DNA of 64,000 bases from Flammeovirgaceae bacterium (GTDB lineage: Bacteria > Bacteroidota > Bacteroidia > Cytophagales > Cyclobacteriaceae): NCBI GenBank assembly GCA_024638265.1, contig JAHEKQ010000002.1:33785-97784 (forward strand), written 5' to 3'. The translations under genes were made by a program, and so were the position numbers. The first letter of the stretch is position 1. Each line of letters opens with the position of its first letter. The notes under the pieces are model-generated. The model had not been told where the DNA came from and made no database searches. It saw nothing but the letters and a program-made list of their open reading frames with translations. Shown here in pieces: positions 25,469 to 35,771 of the stretch.

Positions 25469-26449
25469 ATGGCAAGAATAAAGTATTACTACGATACTGA
25501 AACCTGTAAGTACGAACGGATAAAAACCCGTACGAGCGACATTGTGCTCAATTTCATGGGCTTTGGGGTCCTTTCCCTTGTATTTGGAGTTGGCATATAT
25601 ATCATCTTCAATACCTATTTTGAATCACCCCAGGTTCTCTCTTTGAAAAATGAAGTAGGGGAGCTGAAGTATCAGATATCTGCGATGGAAGAAGACCTGG
25701 ATCAACTTGACCGGATCGCTTCCGCGCTGGAATACAGGGATAACAATATTTATCGTGTGATTATGGGAGTTGAACCCATTCACCCGGATATCAGGAATGC
25801 GGGAATTGGAGGCAGTGACCGGTATTCCAGTTTGGTAGATTCAGAAATTGAGAACCGGGAGATTATATTAAAAACACGGGAAAAGATCGACAAGATCAAG
25901 CGGAAATACTTCATCCAGGTCCAATCATTTGAAAAACTGGAAGACCTCGTAGAGGACAAGGAGTTAATGCTTGCCGCTATTCCGGCTATTCAACCTATTT
26001 CCAACAAGGAATTGATCAGACTGGCATCGGGCTATGGCCGACGTTTTCACCCGGTATACAAAGTGAGAAAAATGCACTGGGGTATTGATTTCTCTGCCCC
26101 CACTGGGACTCCAGTCTACTCTACAGCTGACGGAAAAGTCGATCACCTCGAGGTAAGTTTCAGAGGTTATGGTAAGCAAATCGAGATCGATCATGGTTTC
26201 GGCTTTAAAACTAAATACGCTCACCTCCATGAATTCGCTGTTAAAAAGGGACAGGAAGTTAAACGAGGTGAGCTAATTGGTTATGTAGGCAATACCGGGT
26301 TATCCACGGCACCTCATTTACACTATGAAATTACACGCAATGGGAAGAAAGTGAATCCGGTTCACTATTTCTTCAACGATCTCACCCCCGAAGAGTATGA
26401 AAGAGTGGTAGAACTCGCCTCAATTGAAAATCAATCACTGGGAATGTAA
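25469..26449 (+). CDS. Membrane-anchored M23 (LytM) peptidase
   Basis: A 326-aa protein with cytosolic N-tail, one transmembrane helix (about 28-50, VLNFMGFGVLSLVFGVGIYI), a coiled-coil region (about 60-90 and 125-175) and a C-terminal LytM domain. Both zinc motifs are intact (HWGIDFSAP = HxxxD; HLHYEI = HxH), so it should cut peptidoglycan peptides. The layout is that of MepM/NlpD-like cell-wall enzymes in Bacteroidota. It is a single gene between the yidD operon and the his leader. Confidence 0.88.
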   Translation: MARIKYYYDTETCKYERIKTRTSDIVLNFMGFGVLSLVFGVGIYIIFNTYFESPQVLSLKNEVGELKYQISAMEEDLDQLDRIASALEYRDNNIYRVIMGVEPIHPDIRNAGIGGSDRYSSLVDSEIENREIILKTREKIDKIKRKYFIQVQSFEKLEDLVEDKELMLAAIPAIQPISNKELIRLASGYGRRFHPVYKVRKMHWGIDFSAPTGTPVYSTADGKVDHLEVSFRGYGKQIEIDHGFGFKTKYAHLHEFAVKKGQEVKRGELIGYVGNTGLSTAPHLHYEITRNGKKVNPVHYFFNDLTPEEYERVVELASIENQSLGM

Positions 26450-26469
26450 TACCATTTGTAACTTTTTCA

Positions 26470-26501
26470 TTTGGAGGTTGTTGAATCTTCATATTTCTTT
26501 G
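26470..26501 (+). promoter_or_regulatory. Candidate his operon promoter
   Basis: TTTG (26470-26473), a 20-bp spacer and TTTCTTTG (26494-26501, seven of eight bases of TAnnTTTG) fit the Bacteroidota promoter spacing. The start of transcription would fall a few bases before the leader ATG at 26513. Confidence 0.45.
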
Positions 26502-26512
26502 CAACAAAATTA

Positions 26513-26563
26513 ATGAGAATGATAAACAGGGGTCACCATCACCATTTTTTGCTCGTGCAATAG
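26513..26563 (+). CDS. hisL: his operon leader peptide
   Basis: This 16-codon frame reads MRMINRGHHHHFLLVQ, with four consecutive His codons (26534-26545) and a TAG at 26561-26563. It is placed just before the hairpins at 26531-26616 and 79 bp before hisG. Its only likely role is to sense His-tRNA supply by ribosome pausing. ATG at 26519 is an alternative start that does not change the idea. Confidence 0.88.
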   Translation: MRMINRGHHHHFLLVQ

Positions 26564-26622
26564 CATGACAAGGGTGACCTGTATACATAAAATGGGGCTT
26601 GTCGTGCGACAAGCCCTTTTTT
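26531..26622 (+). promoter_or_regulatory. his attenuator: alternative antiterminator/terminator hairpins
   Basis: Four segments can be read. Segment 1, GGTCACC (26531-26537), overlaps the first His codons and pairs with GGTGACC (26573-26579). Segment 2, GCATGACAAG (26563-26572), can pair with segment 3, CTTGTCGTGC (26598-26607), over 10 bp with one G-U. Segment 3 instead forms the terminator stem GGGCTTGTCG / CGACAAGCCC (26595-26616), followed by TTTTTTATTT. A ribosome stalled at the His codons covers segment 1, frees segment 2 to pair with 3, and transcription continues into hisG. With enough His-tRNA the terminator forms. Confidence 0.88.
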
Positions 26623-26641
26623 ATTTCAACAATAAGCGTAG

Positions 26642-27499
26642 ATGACACAGTTAAAAATTGCAATTCAGAAGTCCGGTAGATTAATGGAGGGAAGCCTTAG
26701 ATTACTGGCTGAATGTGGATTAAAAATTCAAAATGGTAAAAACCAATTGAAAAGCCAGGCTATTGACTTCCCGGCCGAATTACTGTTTCTCCGCGATGAT
26801 GATATCCCCGAATATGTTCAGGATGGCGTCGCAGATATCGGCATCGTCGGAGACAACGTCCGTCTTGAGAAGGGAAAAAATAACGAAATGGTATTGCCCC
26901 TGGGTTTTTCCAAATGCCGGTTATCATTGGCCGTATCACGCGATAGTGATATCAAAAAGCCCGAAGACCTCAATGGAAAACGTATAGCTACTTCCTACCC
27001 GGTAATCCTTGAAAAATATCTCGAAGAAAAGAATATCAGTGCGGAGATTCACGAAATCAGCGGATCGGTTGAAATAGCGCCCGGTATCGGTTTGGCCCAG
27101 GCGATATTTGATATTGTCAGTACCGGCAGCACCTTATTGAGCAATGGCCTTGTTGAGCTGGCTACAGTGGCAAAGAGTGAGGCAGTTCTCATCAAGAATA
27201 AGAATCTATCGGCTGAAAAGAGCCTGCTACTGGAGAGTTTACTGTTCAGGATAAAGTCTGTCCACAGTGCCAGCAACAACAAATATATTCTCCTGAATGC
27301 CCCGAACAGTGCTGTAGATACCATTTCAGAACTGTTACCTGGAATGGAGAGTCCAACAGTGTTGCCGCTAAAGAAAGAGGGATGGTCATCCATTCACTCT
27401 GTTGTCAATGAATCAGATTTCTGGACGATTATCGATCAGTTAAAGGAAGCCGGAGCCAGGGGAATCCTGGTAGTACCTATAGAAAAAATGATCTTATAA
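26642..27499 (+). CDS. hisG: ATP phosphoribosyltransferase, long form
   Basis: A 285-aa protein catalysing the first step of histidine synthesis (ATP + PRPP). KIAIQKSGRLMEGS at the N-terminus, DGVADIGIVGDNV and the PRPP loop DIVSTGSTLLSNG (about 160-172) are typical. The C-terminal about 75 residues form the ACT-like feedback domain, so this is the hexameric long form that binds histidine and does not need HisZ. First structural gene after the attenuator; overlaps hisD by one base. Confidence 0.97.
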   Translation: MTQLKIAIQKSGRLMEGSLRLLAECGLKIQNGKNQLKSQAIDFPAELLFLRDDDIPEYVQDGVADIGIVGDNVRLEKGKNNEMVLPLGFSKCRLSLAVSRDSDIKKPEDLNGKRIATSYPVILEKYLEEKNISAEIHEISGSVEIAPGIGLAQAIFDIVSTGSTLLSNGLVELATVAKSEAVLIKNKNLSAEKSLLLESLLFRIKSVHSASNNKYILLNAPNSAVDTISELLPGMESPTVLPLKKEGWSSIHSVVNESDFWTIIDQLKEAGARGILVVPIEKMIL

Positions 27500-28779
27500 T
27501 GAATATTCTAAAGAATCCTCCCAGGGAAGATTGGGAAGAAATTTGTACCCGTCCCGGACTAGATGCGGAATTTCTGCGGAGCTCACTCCGAAATCTTATT
27601 GAGCGGGTAAGACTTGGTGGAGATGATGCGGTCCGGGAATTTACTTCCCAATATGACCGGGTGAACATAAGAGAATTGCGCGTATCTGAAGAAGAAATCT
27701 CTGAAGCCGTTCAAATTCTTGATGACGATTTGAAAAATGCTATTCAGGTAGCAGCCGATAATATCTGGAAATTTCACGAAAAGCAAGTGCCCCCAACTGC
27801 CCATGTTGAGACCATGCCAGGTGTTAAGGTTTGGAGAAAAGCCGTTCCTATTGAAAAGGTTGGAATATATGTGCCTGGAGGTACGGCACCACTTTTCAGT
27901 TCAGTTCTAATGATGGCGGTTCCTGCTTCAATTGCAGGATGCCACGAAATTGTGCTTTGTACACCTCCCAATAAGGAGGGCAGGGTTCATCCCGCCATAT
28001 TGTACGCTGCACAACTTACCGGAGTAAAAAACATTTTCAAGATTGGTGGTGCCCAGGCCATCGCAGCCATGTCTTGTGGCACGGAATCTGTTCCCTCAGT
28101 ATATAAGATCTACGGTCCTGGTAACCAGTACGTAACTATGGCTAAGCAGTTAGTCAGTGAAGATGGAACTGCTATTGATATGCCCGCAGGGCCATCGGAG
28201 GTAGCGGTTTTAAGTGACCACACCGCTCAACCATCCTATATTGCGGCGGATCTTCTCTCTCAGGCTGAGCACGGGTCGGACAGCCAGGTAATATTTGTTA
28301 CAACAGATCCCTCTCTCCCAGAAAAAGTAAAAGCGGAAGTGGACCGGCAAGTAGCTGAATTACCCCGTAAGGAAATGGCCCGAGAAGCATTAAAATCGAG
28401 TAAGATAATCTATATGGATAATTTGGATAACGCAGTCGCATTGATCAATTTTTATGCAGCAGAACATCTGATCGTTCAAACTGAAAACCTGGACAATGTC
28501 GCGGAAAAGATTACTAATGCAGGAAGTGTTTTCCTTGGAAACTATACCCCTGAATCTGCCGGGGATTATGCATCCGGAACTAACCACACACTTCCTACCA
28601 ATGCGAATGCACGGGCTTACTCAGGGTTGAGTACCGAGAGCTTCATGAAATATATTACCTTCCAGCAAATTTCGAAGGAGGGGTTGTCCATATTGGGGCC
28701 AATAGTAGAAAAAATGGCTGAAGCTGAAGAACTTCAAGCCCACAAAAATGCAGTATCTATCAGGTTGACTAATGGATAA
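27499..28779 (+). CDS. hisD: Histidinol dehydrogenase
   Basis: A 426-aa zinc enzyme for the last two steps (histidinol to histidine, NAD). It shows KVGIYVPGGTAPL, IYGPGNQYVTMAKQLV, DLLSQAEHGSDSQ (zinc Gln/His) and GTNHTLPTNANARAYSGLS with the catalytic Glu/His region. Length fits the family. It overlaps hisC by 8 bp. Confidence 0.97.
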   Translation: MNILKNPPREDWEEICTRPGLDAEFLRSSLRNLIERVRLGGDDAVREFTSQYDRVNIRELRVSEEEISEAVQILDDDLKNAIQVAADNIWKFHEKQVPPTAHVETMPGVKVWRKAVPIEKVGIYVPGGTAPLFSSVLMMAVPASIAGCHEIVLCTPPNKEGRVHPAILYAAQLTGVKNIFKIGGAQAIAAMSCGTESVPSVYKIYGPGNQYVTMAKQLVSEDGTAIDMPAGPSEVAVLSDHTAQPSYIAADLLSQAEHGSDSQVIFVTTDPSLPEKVKAEVDRQVAELPRKEMAREALKSSKIIYMDNLDNAVALINFYAAEHLIVQTENLDNVAEKITNAGSVFLGNYTPESAGDYASGTNHTLPTNANARAYSGLSTESFMKYITFQQISKEGLSILGPIVEKMAEAEELQAHKNAVSIRLTNG

Positions 28780-29827
28780 ATCAAATCTGAATATTAAAGA
28801 CCTTGTCAGGGATAATATTCTGAACCTTGTCCCCTATTCATCTGCCCGTTCAGAGTATAGCGAACATGCTGATATCTACCTCGATGCTAATGAATCCCCT
28901 TTTGATACAGGCTACAACCGCTATCCTGATCCACTCCAAAAAGAGTTGAAGAAGGAAATCGGGAAACTGAAAAATATTGGGACCGATAAGGTATTTATTG
29001 GGAATGGAAGCGATGAAGCTATTGACCTTATAATCCGTGTCTTCTGTACTCCCCTGCTTGAAGAAGTATTGCTTGTGGAGCCCACTTATGGCATGTATTC
29101 GGTCAGTGCCGCTATAAATAACATCGGCATTGTCCGAACAAATCTCAACGAAGATTACACCCTGGATGCGGACCGCGTACTCAATTCGGTCACCAGTACA
29201 ACGAAGGTCATATTCCTTTGCTCTCCCAATAATCCTTCTGGGAATCTTTTTGAACCTGAACAGATAATCAGAATTCTAGAGGGATTTCATGGGATTGTGG
29301 TAATCGATGAGGCGTATATCGATTTCAGTCAACGAGATTCGTGGTTACAAAAGATTGACGATTATCAAAAGATGATAGTACTTCAGACATTCAGCAAGGC
29401 ATGGGGACTGGCCGGTTTGCGTGTTGGAATGGCATTCAGCAACCCATCAATTATTCAACTTCTCAATAAGGTGAAGCCTCCGTATAATATCAGCAGCCTG
29501 GTTCAGGAAAAGGTATTGAAAAGTATTATCAATGATCAAAGCAAGGTAAATGATCGAGTAAATGTCATCCTCCGGGAACGGAAAAAAATGCGGGAGGAAT
29601 TGCTTAAACTGGATTTTGTCAAAGAGATTTACCCAAGCCAGTCCAATTTCCTGCTCGTTCAGGTTGATGATCCCAACAAAACATATCAGTATCTTGTAGA
29701 TTCCGGCATTATTGTCAGGAACAGATCCAGGCTGATCCTCTGCGAGGGGTGTTTACGGATCACGATTGGCCTTCAGGAGGAAAACCGCAGACTTATGGAA
29801 GCCTTAAAATCATACGGGAAAATATGA
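28772..29827 (+). CDS. hisC: Histidinol-phosphate aminotransferase
   Basis: A 351-aa fold-type I PLP aminotransferase: YLDANESPFD, CSPNNPSGNLF, VVIDEAYIDF (PLP Asp) and LQTFSKAWGLAGLRVG (Schiff-base Lys). Its place between hisD and hisB fixes the role: imidazole-acetol phosphate to histidinol phosphate. A Tat-exported relative is encoded at 11836. The stop overlaps the hisB ATG (ATGA). Confidence 0.96.
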   Translation: MDKSNLNIKDLVRDNILNLVPYSSARSEYSEHADIYLDANESPFDTGYNRYPDPLQKELKKEIGKLKNIGTDKVFIGNGSDEAIDLIIRVFCTPLLEEVLLVEPTYGMYSVSAAINNIGIVRTNLNEDYTLDADRVLNSVTSTTKVIFLCSPNNPSGNLFEPEQIIRILEGFHGIVVIDEAYIDFSQRDSWLQKIDDYQKMIVLQTFSKAWGLAGLRVGMAFSNPSIIQLLNKVKPPYNISSLVQEKVLKSIINDQSKVNDRVNVILRERKKMREELLKLDFVKEIYPSQSNFLLVQVDDPNKTYQYLVDSGIIVRNRSRLILCEGCLRITIGLQEENRRLMEALKSYGKI

Positions 29828-30960
29828 AACGCGTGCTATTTATTGACCGGGATGGAACGATTGTAAGAGAACCTGCGGATGAACAACTGGATTCCTTTGA
29901 AAAACTGAGTTTCCTTCCGGGCACTATCAGGAGTCTTTTCACTATTGCATCAGAGTTAAATTTCGAATTGGTGATGGTGACGAACCAGGATGGCCTTGGT
30001 ACGGATTTATTTCCCGAAGACAAATTCCTGCCAATCCATAACCTCATTATGACAACCCTTGAGAATGAAGGGATAACCTTCCGATCTGTACATATAGACC
30101 GGTCCTTCCCCAAGGATAATTTACCTACCAGGAAACCAGGAACCGGGATGTTGAAGGAATATATTGAGGGGGATTTTGACCTTGAGCACAGCTTCGTTAT
30201 TGGAGACAGGTACACTGATATGGAACTCGCCCGGAACCTGGGTTGTAAAGGAATTTTGATTCGCGAGGATGACAGAAACCTGGGTTCAGGGGAAACGGAG
30301 CTATCAGAATTAGAGCTTAACGATCACATTGCCCTTAAGGTTGGATCATGGAAGGAAATAAGTCATTGGCTACTCAATAAAGACAGGATAGTATCTATTG
30401 AAAGGAATACCAATGAAACTCAAATCCATATTGAACTTAACCTCGAGGGGGAGGGAAATTATCAAATCGCTACTGGCCTGGGCTTTTTTGATCATATGTT
30501 GGAACAACTTGCCAGGCATGGCGGAGTGGATCTGAATGTATCCGTAAATGGTGACCTGCATATCGATGAACACCATACAATCGAAGATACTGCACTCGCA
30601 TTGGGTTCCGCCTTTGACCAGGCAATGGGGAAAAAGGCCGGCATGGCTCGTTATGGTTTCCATTTACCGATGGATGATTGCCTGGCGGACGTGGCAATTG
30701 ATTTCGGTGGCCGTCCCTGGCTGGAGTGGAAAGCCGAATTTAAAAGGGAAAAAATCGGTGAGATGCCCACTGAAATGTTCCCGCATTTTTTCAGGTCATT
30801 TTGTGAAACTGCCCGCTGCAACCTGCACATAGGATGCGATGGAAATAATGAACATCACAAAATTGAAGCTATTTTCAAGGCCTTTGCCCGATCTGTTAAA
30901 CAGGCAATCGCGCGCGAAGAAGGTAAAGGTGGTATACCGACTACGAAAGGGATCTTGTAA
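29824..30960 (+). CDS. hisB: Bifunctional histidinol-phosphatase / imidazoleglycerol-phosphate dehydratase
   Basis: From ATG 29824 (MKRVLFIDRDGTIV) the 378-aa protein has an N-terminal HAD phosphatase (DxDGT motif at about residues 8-12, FVIGDRYTDMELA) and a C-terminal dehydratase from about residue 185 with the metal motifs DEHHTIEDTA and EHHKIEAIFKAF. It performs two steps of the pathway, like the enterobacterial HisB. A longer frame to 29749 reads into hisC and is not the real start. It ends one base into hisH (TAATG). Confidence 0.96.
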   Translation: MKRVLFIDRDGTIVREPADEQLDSFEKLSFLPGTIRSLFTIASELNFELVMVTNQDGLGTDLFPEDKFLPIHNLIMTTLENEGITFRSVHIDRSFPKDNLPTRKPGTGMLKEYIEGDFDLEHSFVIGDRYTDMELARNLGCKGILIREDDRNLGSGETELSELELNDHIALKVGSWKEISHWLLNKDRIVSIERNTNETQIHIELNLEGEGNYQIATGLGFFDHMLEQLARHGGVDLNVSVNGDLHIDEHHTIEDTALALGSAFDQAMGKKAGMARYGFHLPMDDCLADVAIDFGGRPWLEWKAEFKREKIGEMPTEMFPHFFRSFCETARCNLHIGCDGNNEHHKIEAIFKAFARSVKQAIAREEGKGGIPTTKGIL

Positions 30961-31544
30961 TGAAGATAGCAATCATAAAATATAATGCGGGAAATACCCA
31001 ATCTGTAATCAATGCATTAACAAGACTGGGTATCGATCCTATTTTGACTGACGATAAACAAGAAATTCTATCAGCGGATAAGGTAATCTTTCCAGGTGTA
31101 GGGGAAGCAGCAACCACTATGAACCATTTGAATGAACTGAAGCTGGCTGAGTTTATTCCTTCCCTAAAACAACCGGTTTTGGGCATCTGCCTGGGTATGC
31201 AATTGATGTGTCGGTATTCCGAGGAGAATAATACCAAATGTATGGGCATATTTGAACTGGATGTACTGAAATTCAAACCCCTGAATAGTGAGCAGGTCCC
31301 GCATATGGGTTGGAATACCTTGAAAAATACCTCCTCTCCTCTCTTAACAGGCCTTGAAGATGAGCACGTCTATTTCGTCCACAGCTACTATGTCCCGTTA
31401 AATGATAATTCTATTGCAACAACTGACTATATCCACCCATATTGCTCAGCGATAAACAAAGATAATTTTTATGCCGTACAATTTCACCCCGAAAAAAGCT
31501 CAATTGCCGGGGCGAGAATACTTGATAACTTTATAAAGCTATGA
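30960..31544 (+). CDS. hisH: Imidazole glycerol phosphate synthase, glutaminase subunit
   Basis: A 194-aa class I glutamine amidotransferase. The nucleophile Cys lies in LGICLGMQLM (about residue 80), and His and Glu in VQFHPEKSS near the C-terminus. It makes ammonia and channels it to HisF. The usual Gly-rich oxyanion part and PGVGEAATTM are present. Overlaps hisA by ATGA. Confidence 0.96.
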   Translation: MKIAIIKYNAGNTQSVINALTRLGIDPILTDDKQEILSADKVIFPGVGEAATTMNHLNELKLAEFIPSLKQPVLGICLGMQLMCRYSEENNTKCMGIFELDVLKFKPLNSEQVPHMGWNTLKNTSSPLLTGLEDEHVYFVHSYYVPLNDNSIATTDYIHPYCSAINKDNFYAVQFHPEKSSIAGARILDNFIKL

Positions 31545-32266
31545 TAACCGTAATTCCAGCAATTGACCTCATCGATGGTAACTGTGTTCGTTTGACAGAA
31601 GGTAACTTTGACACGAAGAAGATTTATTATCGGGACCCTGTAGATGCAGCCAAACTTATTGAAGGATGTGGCCTGACACATTTGCATGTAGTAGATCTGG
31701 ACAATGCGAAAGCCGGGAAGGTCCTTTCCCTGGAATCCCTTGAGAGAATTGCCAGCAGTACTTCCCTTACTATAGATTACGGAGGAGGAGTGAAAACGCT
31801 GGAAGAATTAAAATCAGTGTTTGAAGCAGGTGTTGACCAAGTTAATATTGGGAGTCTTGCTGTCCATGACCCAGACCTCGTAAAAGAATGGCTACATGAT
31901 TACAGTGGGAAGATCATCCTATCGGCAGACGCAAAAAACAATAAAATCGCTACTGCCGGCTGGCAGAGTGAATCCGAACTACAATTGCAGGATTTTATCC
32001 AAATATTTACGGAGCACGGACTTGAGTATATCACATCTACAGACATCAGTAAGGATGGAAAGTTGGGTGGGCCATCCTTTGAAATGTATGAAATTCTGAG
32101 GAAGGAATTTCCATCACTGAATATTTGCGCTTCGGGAGGTGTTACAAGGTCCGAGGATATTGAAAAACTCCAGGATATGGGTATAAACCGGGTGATCGTG
32201 GGTAAGGCCATTTACGAGGGGGTACTTACTTTCGGAGACCTGGCAAAATTTACCGATGATGCTTAA
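31541..32266 (+). CDS. hisA: ProFAR isomerase
   Basis: A 241-aa (beta-alpha)8 barrel. The N-terminal [18 protein letters not shown] has the catalytic Asp, and the two half-barrel phosphate sites are DYGGGV and CASGGVTR. It catalyses the Amadori rearrangement in histidine synthesis. Its C-terminus overlaps the hisF start by 11 bp. Confidence 0.96.
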
Positions 32267-33014
32267 AAAGCGCATTATTCCCTGTCTTGATGTCAACAAT
32301 GGCAGGACGGTAAAAGGTATCAATTTCATCGATCTGAGAGATGCCGGTGATCCCGTAGAGTTGGGTGAGGCCTATGCTAAAAAAGGGGCCGATGAATTGG
32401 TGTACCTGGACATATCTGCAACGAATGAAAATCGATCGACCTTTACCGAACTTGTACGATCTATTGCACGCCATGTAGATATACCTTTCACAGTAGGAGG
32501 AGGAATCTCTACTGTGGAAGATGTAAAGCCGTTGCTCGAAGCGGGAGCGGACAAGGTATCCGTAAACTCTGCTGCCGTAAAAAACCCTGGGTTGATTGAC
32601 AAACTCGTAAATGCCTTCGGTAGTCAATGCATCGTAGTGGCAATAGACGCCAGATATACCGGGGATAGATGGATTGTGCATACACACGGGGGTAGCAAAC
32701 CCACAGATAAAGAGTTGTTCTCATGGGCTGCGGAAGTGGAATCAAGAGGTGCCGGGGAAATCCTCTTTACCAGTATGGATCATGATGGTACGAAAAAGGG
32801 ATTTGCAGTAGAAGCACTCAACCGTCTAAGCCAGGAAGTCGGGATTCCCGTTATTGCAAGTGGTGGCGCAGGTGAAATCGAGCACTTCACCGAGGTGTTT
32901 ACAAAAACGCCTGTGACAGCCGCACTGGCTGCCAGTATTTTTCACTTTGGTGAAATTGAGATAGGAACCCTGAAAAAAGAATTATCAAATAAAGGAATTG
33001 CCGTAAGACTATGA
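32256..33014 (+). CDS. hisF: Imidazole glycerol phosphate synthase, cyclase subunit
   Basis: A 252-aa (beta-alpha)8 barrel with [18 protein letters not shown] (Asp), [23 protein letters not shown] (second Asp) and ASGGAGE. It closes the imidazole ring and releases AICAR, working with HisH. ATG at 32256 or 32259 both fit. ATGA overlap with hisIE. Confidence 0.96.
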
Positions 33015-33595
33015 ATCCCGATTTTGAAAAACATAAATTAATCCCTGCTATAGTGCAGGATCAAATCACGAAAAACGTATTGATGCTTGCCTTTATGAAC
33101 CGGGAGTCATTTGATAAGACCTTGGAAACCGGGAAGGTGACATTCTACAGTAGAAGCCGTGATAGCTTATGGACGAAGGGTGAAACCTCCGGTAATTATC
33201 TCCAATACCAATCACACTACATTGATTGTGACCGGGATACCATCCTGATCTTTGCTACCCCTGAAGGGCCGGCCTGTCATCTCGACAATGACACGTGTTT
33301 TGGAGAATTTGAAAATACGGGAACTGACCTTGGCTTTCTAACCGATATAATCAGTGAACGAAAGCATAACCCTTCCGATTCATCGTATACAAACAAACTT
33401 CTTGATAATCTGGATAAAGCAGCACAAAAAGTAGGGGAAGAAGCTGTTGAACTGGTCATCGAGGCGAAAGACAACCGCAATGAGAGATTCCTTGAGGAAG
33501 CTGCAGATCTCATGTATCATTACCTCGTGCTGCTAGCAGCAAAAGACATGGATCTCTCGGAAGTTATTTCAATTCTGAGAAAAAGGATGAAGTAG
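33011..33595 (+). CDS. hisIE: Phosphoribosyl-AMP cyclohydrolase / phosphoribosyl-ATP pyrophosphatase
   Basis: A 194-aa fusion. The HisI part (1-~105) has [11 protein letters not shown] and DCDRDTIL with [10 protein letters not shown] (zinc/magnesium ligands). The HisE part (~110-194) has [13 protein letters not shown] and [14 protein letters not shown], the MazG-like helix bundle. It catalyses the second and third steps of the pathway. It is the last gene of the operon, with only one base between its stop and the stop of the convergent otsAB gene. Confidence 0.96.
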
Positions 33596-33596
33596 T

Positions 33597-35771
33597 TTAA
33601 AGCAGTCCCTTTAACAATTCACGAACTGATGCAGGGTCTTTTATACTATAAGAGGCCGATGACCTGTTACCACCTACTTTAACGGTATAAGCTCCTTTAG
33701 GCATGGCCTCAAAAGTGTCTTCGTCTGTCCTGTCGTCACCTACGGCGAGTATATAATCGTACTTCTGATCCTTTAACCATTTGGCAGCAGCCCTACCTTT
33801 ATCGACCTGGGCATTCTTTATTTCAACTACCTTATCTCCTTCCAATACATGAAGGTTCATATCTTCGGAAAGGAACCGTAGATGGCTGAATATTTCCCTG
33901 GACCTTAACTCACCCAGTCCCGTTTCCACTTTTCTGAAGTGCCAAACCAGGCTGAAATCCTTCTCTTCTATCAAAGATCCTGGAGTTTTAGAAACGTACA
34001 TTTCCAATATTGGCTTAATTTCTTCCTTCCAATCAGAATTCAAATCATCTATAGTCTCCCATTTACTTCCTTTCTGGCGTAGCCAGATTCCGTGTTCGGC
34101 AATTATATCTACATTAAGCGAACCCAACCAGTTCTCAAGAGAATGTCTTTCCCTTCCACTAATAATCACCACCTTAGTTCCCTTTTTCTCTGAAAGTGAT
34201 TTAAGCAAATCTATTAATTCCTTATCGGGTTTTGCTTTCTCAGGTGAATTCTGAAATTCTACAAGAGTACCATCATAATCGAGGAAAATGATCTGGCTCT
34301 TTGAACTTTGGAAATCCTTGAACAGCTTCTGCCTGGTACTTTCATCAATAAGTTTGGTCCTGAACTCATCTTGCTGATGTGTCACCTGATCAAGCCGGGT
34401 AAGAAAGAGATCCACCCAGTGATGTACATTATACCTTTTGATAGTTTTTTGCATTGATTCAAGAGCGCGCCTCTGATCTTTTAATGACATCTCAAGGGCT
34501 GTTTTTATAGCGTCGGCTACCTGGTGTTTATCATTGGGATTGATCAATATGGCATCGCTCAACTCCTTCGAGGCACCGGCCATTTCACTCAGAATCAATA
34601 CTCCCTTTTTATCTAGTTTGCTGGCGACAAATTCTTTACATACGAGGTTCATCCCATCTCTCATAGGAGTTACCATAGCTACATCAGCCATTCTGTAAAG
34701 GGCCGAAAGTTTGGGTAAATCGAGGGAGCGATAGAAATAATGGATTGGGGTCCAATTCATAGACCCATATGTTCCATTAATCCTACCTACCAACAAATCT
34801 ACTTCCTCTTTCAGGGCCATATACTGTGCAACTTTGTCCCTTGAAGGCACTACCAGTAGGATCAGTGAGACTTTTCCCTGGTATTGTGGGTATTTTTTTA
34901 AGAACAGGTCAAATATTACTAGTCGTTGTGGTATTCCCTTGGAGTAATCCAGGCGGTCAATCGAGAGTATCAATTTTTGCTGGCCCAGTGAAGTTCGATA
35001 CTCTACTTCATTGGATATGGTCTCAGGGTCAGCAGCAGCTTTTGCATATTTATCATAATCAATGCCCATGGGAAAGGGATCCACCTGCACAATCCTGTTG
35101 GCCATATTGATTTGTCCCTGGTGATTACCAAGAGATACAAGCCGGTTTACCGCGCTGAGAAAGTGTCGCATGTCATCATAGGTATGAAATCCTATGAGAT
35201 CTGCACCCAGTACACCAAAAAGCAATTGCTTTCTCCACGGTATTAAACGGAATACTTCATGTGATGGAAATGGAATATGAAGGAAAAAGCCTATGCTTGC
35301 GTTGGGCAATTTATCCCTTATCAGCTGTGGAAGTAAGAAAAGTTGGTAATCATGGACCCAAATCCTGTCGCCATCTTCTGCAATATCAAGAACTGCATCA
35401 CGAAACTTCTCATTAACGGCTACATAGCTCTCCCAAAGATTCCTTTTGTAAATCGCATACTGGTTGAAATAGTGGAAGTTCGGCCACAAAGTGGAATTAC
35501 AGAAACCTTCGTAGAAATCCTCAATTTCCTTTTTAGAGAGGAATACTGGTTGCATATTTTCTGAAAGCAGCTTCTGTTTAGTTTCATCCTTCAAGTCCGG
35601 ATCCGTCATATAGATCCCCGGCCAGCCGATCCACATATTTCCACCACCCTTATACACGGATCCCAAACCTGTGGCAAGTCCGCCTTCACTTGGAATATAA
35701 CTGAGTCCTTCTTCCGGATTTCCCTCTACCCTGACGGGTAGCCTGTTTGAGATAATAATTGTTTTTCCCAT
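33597..35771 (-). CDS. Trehalose-6-phosphate synthase/phosphatase fusion
   Basis: A 724-aa protein in two parts. OtsA-like GT20 (about 1-480) has IWVHDYQLFLLPQLIR, SIGFFLHIPFPSHEVFR, DRLDYSKGIPQRL and MRDGMNLVCKEFVASK (the UDP-sugar site). OtsB-like HAD phosphatase (about 490-724) starts IIFLDYDGTLVEF (DxDGT) and has VVIISGR and VGDDRTDEDTFEAM. Together it makes trehalose from UDP-glucose and glucose-6-phosphate via trehalose-6-phosphate, giving an osmo- or desiccation protectant. It is tail-to-tail with hisIE. Confidence 0.95.
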   Translation of the reverse strand: MGKTIIISNRLPVRVEGNPEEGLSYIPSEGGLATGLGSVYKGGGNMWIGWPGIYMTDPDLKDETKQKLLSENMQPVFLSKKEIEDFYEGFCNSTLWPNFHYFNQYAIYKRNLWESYVAVNEKFRDAVLDIAEDGDRIWVHDYQLFLLPQLIRDKLPNASIGFFLHIPFPSHEVFRLIPWRKQLLFGVLGADLIGFHTYDDMRHFLSAVNRLVSLGNHQGQINMANRIVQVDPFPMGIDYDKYAKAAADPETISNEVEYRTSLGQQKLILSIDRLDYSKGIPQRLVIFDLFLKKYPQYQGKVSLILLVVPSRDKVAQYMALKEEVDLLVGRINGTYGSMNWTPIHYFYRSLDLPKLSALYRMADVAMVTPMRDGMNLVCKEFVASKLDKKGVLILSEMAGASKELSDAILINPNDKHQVADAIKTALEMSLKDQRRALESMQKTIKRYNVHHWVDLFLTRLDQVTHQQDEFRTKLIDESTRQKLFKDFQSSKSQIIFLDYDGTLVEFQNSPEKAKPDKELIDLLKSLSEKKGTKVVIISGRERHSLENWLGSLNVDIIAEHGIWLRQKGSKWETIDDLNSDWKEEIKPILEMYVSKTPGSLIEEKDFSLVWHFRKVETGLGELRSREIFSHLRFLSEDMNLHVLEGDKVVEIKNAQVDKGRAAAKWLKDQKYDYILAVGDDRTDEDTFEAMPKGAYTVKVGGNRSSASYSIKDPASVRELLKGLL

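Follow-up and report, generated by a model that had tools for sequence, protein, structure and literature searches.

Ribosome-mediated attenuation of the his operon is textbook knowledge in Enterobacteria, and the his leader of E. coli carries seven His codons. Vitreschak et al., in the abstract of a 2004 study, reportedly mention some attenuator candidates in Bacteroidetes/Chlorobi. A 2010 survey stated that, until the Firmicutes case it presented, leader-peptide systems were known only from Proteobacteria and Actinobacteria (PMC2965389). His attenuators have been predicted in the Bacillus cereus group, Eubacteriales and Erysipelotrichales (PMC9413887). In the Flavobacterium psychrophilum transcriptome (2021), strong clues to leader-peptide attenuation were found upstream of amino-acid operons, and hisG was preceded by a structured 5' element that is conserved in Flavobacteriaceae and has no Rfam hits (PMC9723704); leader-like short ORFs were mapped in long 5' UTRs of B. 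thetaiotaomicron (PMC7366714).

The hisG upstream region was analyzed in the window, the whole 64,000-nucleotide stretch of Flammeovirgaceae bacterium DNA under study, and very probably acts as a ribosome-mediated transcription attenuator of the his operon. It shares with Escherichia coli/Salmonella hisL (RF00514) a short leader ORF with a His run, alternative 1:2, 2:3 and 3:4 pairing and a T-run terminator, followed by hisG. Unlike hisL it has four His codons and a putative Bacteroidota promoter, its 5' leader is very short and shows no Shine-Dalgarno-like site, and it lacks detectable sequence or covariance-model similarity to the enterobacterial element: RF00514 (His_leader) gave no match in this genome, and the control search did match in E. 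coli. The Firmicutes attenuators also combine three to five consecutive His codons with a predicted terminator and antiterminator before his operons (PMC9413887); their origin was probably independent. The F. psychrophilum element lies before hisG in a member of the same phylum, a likeness drawn by description only, whereas no mechanism was given for it (PMC9723704) and the window belongs to Cytophagales. His attenuation in this lineage had thus been hinted at, with the mechanism not worked out in the literature searched.

Anatomy of the locus and its putative promoter

Features are collected in Table 1. The elements proposed by the sequence-only reading (leader ORF, first stem, antiterminator and terminator) were all present with the coordinates and counts it gave, as was its eight-gene his operon, in which the genes lie head to tail (26642-33595) and hisB and hisIE are fused genes. 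Gene names were assigned by recognition of the proteins without a family scan, with the exception of hisG (PF01634). A 724-aa ORF (33597-35771, minus strand) is convergent to the operon end; we take it, by recognition without a family scan, to resemble a fused trehalose-6-phosphate synthase/phosphatase.

Table 1. Features of the hisG upstream region and its surroundings, in window positions.
Feature	Positions	Strand	Basis or remark
M23-type peptidase gene	25469-26449		5' neighbor, co-directional with the his operon
Intergenic region, peptidase gene to hisG	26450-26641		
TTTG, -33-type element (Bacteroidota sigma-A type)	26470-26473	+	Consensus match
TTTCTTTG, -7-type box	26494-26501	+	7/8 to TAnnTTTG
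Leader peptide ORF, MRMINRGHHHHFLLVQ and stop	26513-26563	+	ORF listing, 16 codons, ATG 26513, TAG 26561-26563; His-rich leader in 92/130 relatives
His codons CAC CAT CAC CAT	26534-26545		Within the leader ORF
Segment 1, outer part, GGGTCACC	26530-26537	+	Fold; contains the first His codon
Segment 1, inner part	26548-26558	+	Fold; leader codons past the His run
Segment 2 core, GCATGACAAG	26563-26572	+	Pairs with segment 1 or segment 3
Partner of outer segment 1, GGGTGACC	26573-26580	+	Fold
Segment 3 (terminator 5' arm and loop)	26594-26607	+	Antiterminator partner at 26598-26607
Segment 4 (terminator 3' arm), then T run 26617-26622	26608-26622	+	
First stem	26530-26537/26573-26580		Covers the first His codon plus one base of the second
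Inner hairpin	26548-26558/26563-26572		Closed by the first stem
Antiterminator helix	26563-26572/26598-26607		10 bp; uses the strand needed by the terminator
Intrinsic terminator	26594-26603/26608-26617		10 bp, loop of 4 nt, T run 26617-26622
hisG, first gene of the operon	26642-27499	+	ORF; PF01634 match, E 1.5e-52
hisD, hisC, hisB, hisH, hisA, hisF, hisIE	27499-33595	+	ORFs, head to tail

The leader ORF is presumably translated, and the segment 2 core begins at the last base of its stop codon. The minimum-energy fold comprised a hairpin over and after the His codons (26530-26580) and the terminator (26594-26617). This RNA folding, proposed as a check in the sequence-only reading, recovered both the 1:2 hairpin and the terminator with a z of -3.75, and none of 200 dinucleotide shuffles was equally stable. 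Terminator-like sites numbered 2 (one hairpin, counted on both strands) vs 0.1 expected. Counted over both strands, the 3.63 Mb genome has 31 copies of the motif CAYCAYCAYCAY, so that ~7e-4 copies would be expected on one strand within 172 bases.

Bacteroidota lack the sigma70 consensus, and their primary sigma factor recognizes TTTG at -33 and TAnnTTTG at -7 (PMC7366714). A scan for sigma70 promoters gave sites inside the leader only and none in the right place, and the Bacteroidota consensus was used. Directly upstream, where the sequence-only reading had noted a good promoter spacing, the candidate of the Bacteroidota type is TTTG followed after 20 nt by TTTCTTTG, which is one base off consensus and lies 11 nt before the leader ATG. 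Of 105 loci of relatives, 80 had an exact TAnnTTTG in the 60 nt preceding the leader (3.9 expected), in most cases 4-20 nt upstream of the start codon. Because of the position of this box, the leader RNA should start a few bases before the ATG, and transcription would begin ~5 nt 5' of it.

Conservation, covariation and breadth in Bacteroidota

Regions upstream of hisG were taken from genomes of relatives and 80 named contigs. A short ORF with at least 4 His in 6 residues preceded hisG at 92 of 130 Cytophagales/Chitinophagales loci, compared with 0 on the reverse strand and 0.1 in shuffled regions. His was the sole strongly enriched residue in these short ORFs; the next, Leu, was enriched at 9 loci. 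The window groups in one family with, among others, a genome that has the same leader and matches Chryseotalea sanaruensis, within Cytophagales. A T-run terminator followed the leader at 74 loci. Relatives lacking the His run and paired segments failing to covary had been named in advance as grounds for dropping the attenuator reading; the run is kept, and the segments covary as follows.

Antiterminator pairing between each locus's own segments 2 and 3 summed to -1006 kcal/mol, vs -840 (sd 18.5) when segments were permuted between species, and 0 of 5000 permutations were equally good. The result also held in the 23 loci that lack the common CTTAC arm (the non-Chitinophaga-type subset). In a 17-sequence alignment pairing in the terminator helix was 100%, and five of its pairs had changes in both partners. 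The antiterminator covariation score was 0.350 vs 0.233 when shuffled and at most 0.137 when slid. The two mutually exclusive helices share one strand, so this strand varies in step with both partners.

Many Cytophagales leader peptides end in MF or LF (L020, L029, L048, L069, L077, L089, L109, L126). These leaders carry TATGTTTTGA or a close variant directly after segment 2, and in several of them TATGTTTTGA seems able to pair with AAAACATA, which precedes the His codons, and would then make an outer 1:2 stem. In a separate region (L160:2136-2260, minus strand) the Rfam models of the Leu and His leaders scored 32.0 and 30.7 bits, both below threshold.

Breadth was assessed in an even draw of genomes across the phylum, with a leader threshold of at least 3 His in 6 residues. 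A His-rich leader ORF preceded hisG in 51 of the 57 genomes whose HisG was at least 42% identical to that of the window, and in 0 of the 22 with a more divergent HisG (<42% identity). Judged from these sequences, much of the phylum has conserved a His-codon leader upstream of hisG. With the terminator search used above, terminator-like hairpins were found in 32 of the 79 upstream regions of the draw, among them weak hairpins at L199 and L201, regions without a His leader. Seven Dyadobacter hisG loci (L049, L050, L064, L073, L084, L092, L104) had no His-rich leader ORF, and control there has therefore been lost or changed.

Folding models and alternative explanations

For the full-length leader at equilibrium the terminator always won, at any ribosome position; the switch was therefore modeled on growing transcripts, as for other attenuators. 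The models used a fixed ribosome footprint and equilibrium pairing. With RNA ends at 26607-26613 and a ribosome on any of the four His codons, the co-transcriptional model gave an antiterminator probability of 0.91-1.00, and without a ribosome at most 0.11. With a ribosome at the leader stop codon the antiterminator was impossible and the terminator reached 1.00 by 26613 in the model. A ribosome at the His codons thus freed segment 2 and one at the stop masked it, and this masking follows partly from the geometry of the model.

The same contrast was modeled in 72 loci with terminators (the window and 71 relatives). Segment 3 paired upstream with a probability above 0.5 in 72/72 loci with a stalled ribosome and in 1/72 with a ribosome at the stop, and the stalled and stop states differed in 72/72. 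Mean upstream pairing of the terminator 5' arm was 0.93 when stalled, 0.61 without a ribosome and 0.08 at the stop. The antiterminator was predicted even without a ribosome in 47/72 loci (the window scored 0.37 by the same measure). The stalled state exceeded the no-ribosome state by more than 0.2 in 33/72, so many species may have a leaky untranslated state; the models suggest a less clear untranslated default in many relatives than in the window. The attenuator proposed from sequence is borne out to the extent that the order, overlap and spacing of its elements give a His-dependent switch in folding models of the window and of all 72 terminator loci modeled.

Termination in the cell and its response to histidine would follow from these models in this way. 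When charged tRNA-His is scarce, a ribosome on the transcript from the putative Bacteroidota-type promoter would stall on the four His codons and cover segment 1. Segment 2 would then pair with segment 3 before segment 4 is made, the terminator would be pre-empted and RNA polymerase would continue into hisG. With ample histidine, the ribosome would move on to the stop codon, which borders segment 2, and mask this segment; segments 3 and 4 would pair, and transcription would end at the T run near 26617-26622. If the leader is not translated, the 1:2 hairpin would form and transcription would also end.

The hairpin and T run could instead serve only as the terminator of the upstream peptidase gene, the short ORF being there by chance. 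That gene is indeed co-directional and ends upstream at 26449, and a T-run terminator does exist; but the hairpin lies 145 nt from the peptidase stop with promoter-type sequence in between, covariation links its 5' arm to segment 2 at the leader's end, and His runs recur in relatives, which makes this explanation very unlikely. It is also improbable, if somewhat less so, that the leader controls hisG translation, by translational attenuation or reinitiation, and not transcription termination. Some known attenuators do have a sequestering hairpin in place of a terminator (PMC9413887), yet the downstream hairpin here is GC-rich with a long T run, 74 loci have such a hairpin, the hisG start (26642) lies outside it, and the 78 nt from leader stop to hisG start are far for reinitiation.

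A metabolite- or tRNA-binding leader RNA (riboswitch or T-box) or a free-standing small RNA can be given hardly any credence. The terminated product would resemble a small RNA, and some sRNA families match the region weakly, below threshold. However, no Rfam family reached cut-off in the window, and none of these models gives a role to the His-codon run or to its constancy across the phylogeny. An Rfam scan of the window found no T-box or other riboswitch above the gathering score and nothing credible at gathering or relaxed thresholds. The weak match to the Bacteroides sRNA BTnc231 was followed up and was not a his leader signal: sub-threshold hits were scattered over 6 of 198 phylum genomes, with none in the genome of the window, and were attributed to chance.

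A terminator-less leader type and significance

Thirty-two relatives had a His leader without a recognizable T-run terminator. A TCCY..RGGA hairpin around the leader stop codon was found in 13/32 of these loci vs 0/74 with a terminator, and the C/G ratio of the spacer to hisG in the terminator-less type was raised (median 1.36 vs 0.93). In the last 150 nt before hisG, leaders of this second type (L005, L009, L010, L013, L030, L114, L118, L123, L141, L152) often encode a peptide ending in HHSS, have a TTCCTC..GAGGAA hairpin around the stop, often followed by an ACATATYGCCC-like stretch, and have no T-run terminator. Control through accessibility of the hisG start found no support in the terminator-less leaders, where accessibility was unchanged with ribosome position. 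RNAalifold on a rough alignment of these leaders gave no common RNA structure.

Rho-dependent attenuation in the terminator-less leaders is a guess that fits. On a broader and rather doubtful scenario, the His-codon leader might be ancestral in a large part of Bacteroidota, with translation from nearly leaderless RNAs, and its output might have changed, with T-run terminators in the type seen in the window and, in close relatives, a terminator-less type possibly acting through Rho. Gating of Rho by a His-codon leader, if true, would add a variant to the known forms of attenuation. The terminator-less relatives are the more surprising lead.

This analysis adds the breadth of the leader across the phylum and the second, terminator-less type in close relatives, and marks out a leader family absent from Rfam. 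Through this comparative evidence, a textbook mechanism now reaches a phylum with promoters of its own. Bacteroidota mostly start translation without Shine-Dalgarno sites, and the his leader offers a ready way to probe the tightness of transcription-translation coupling in them.
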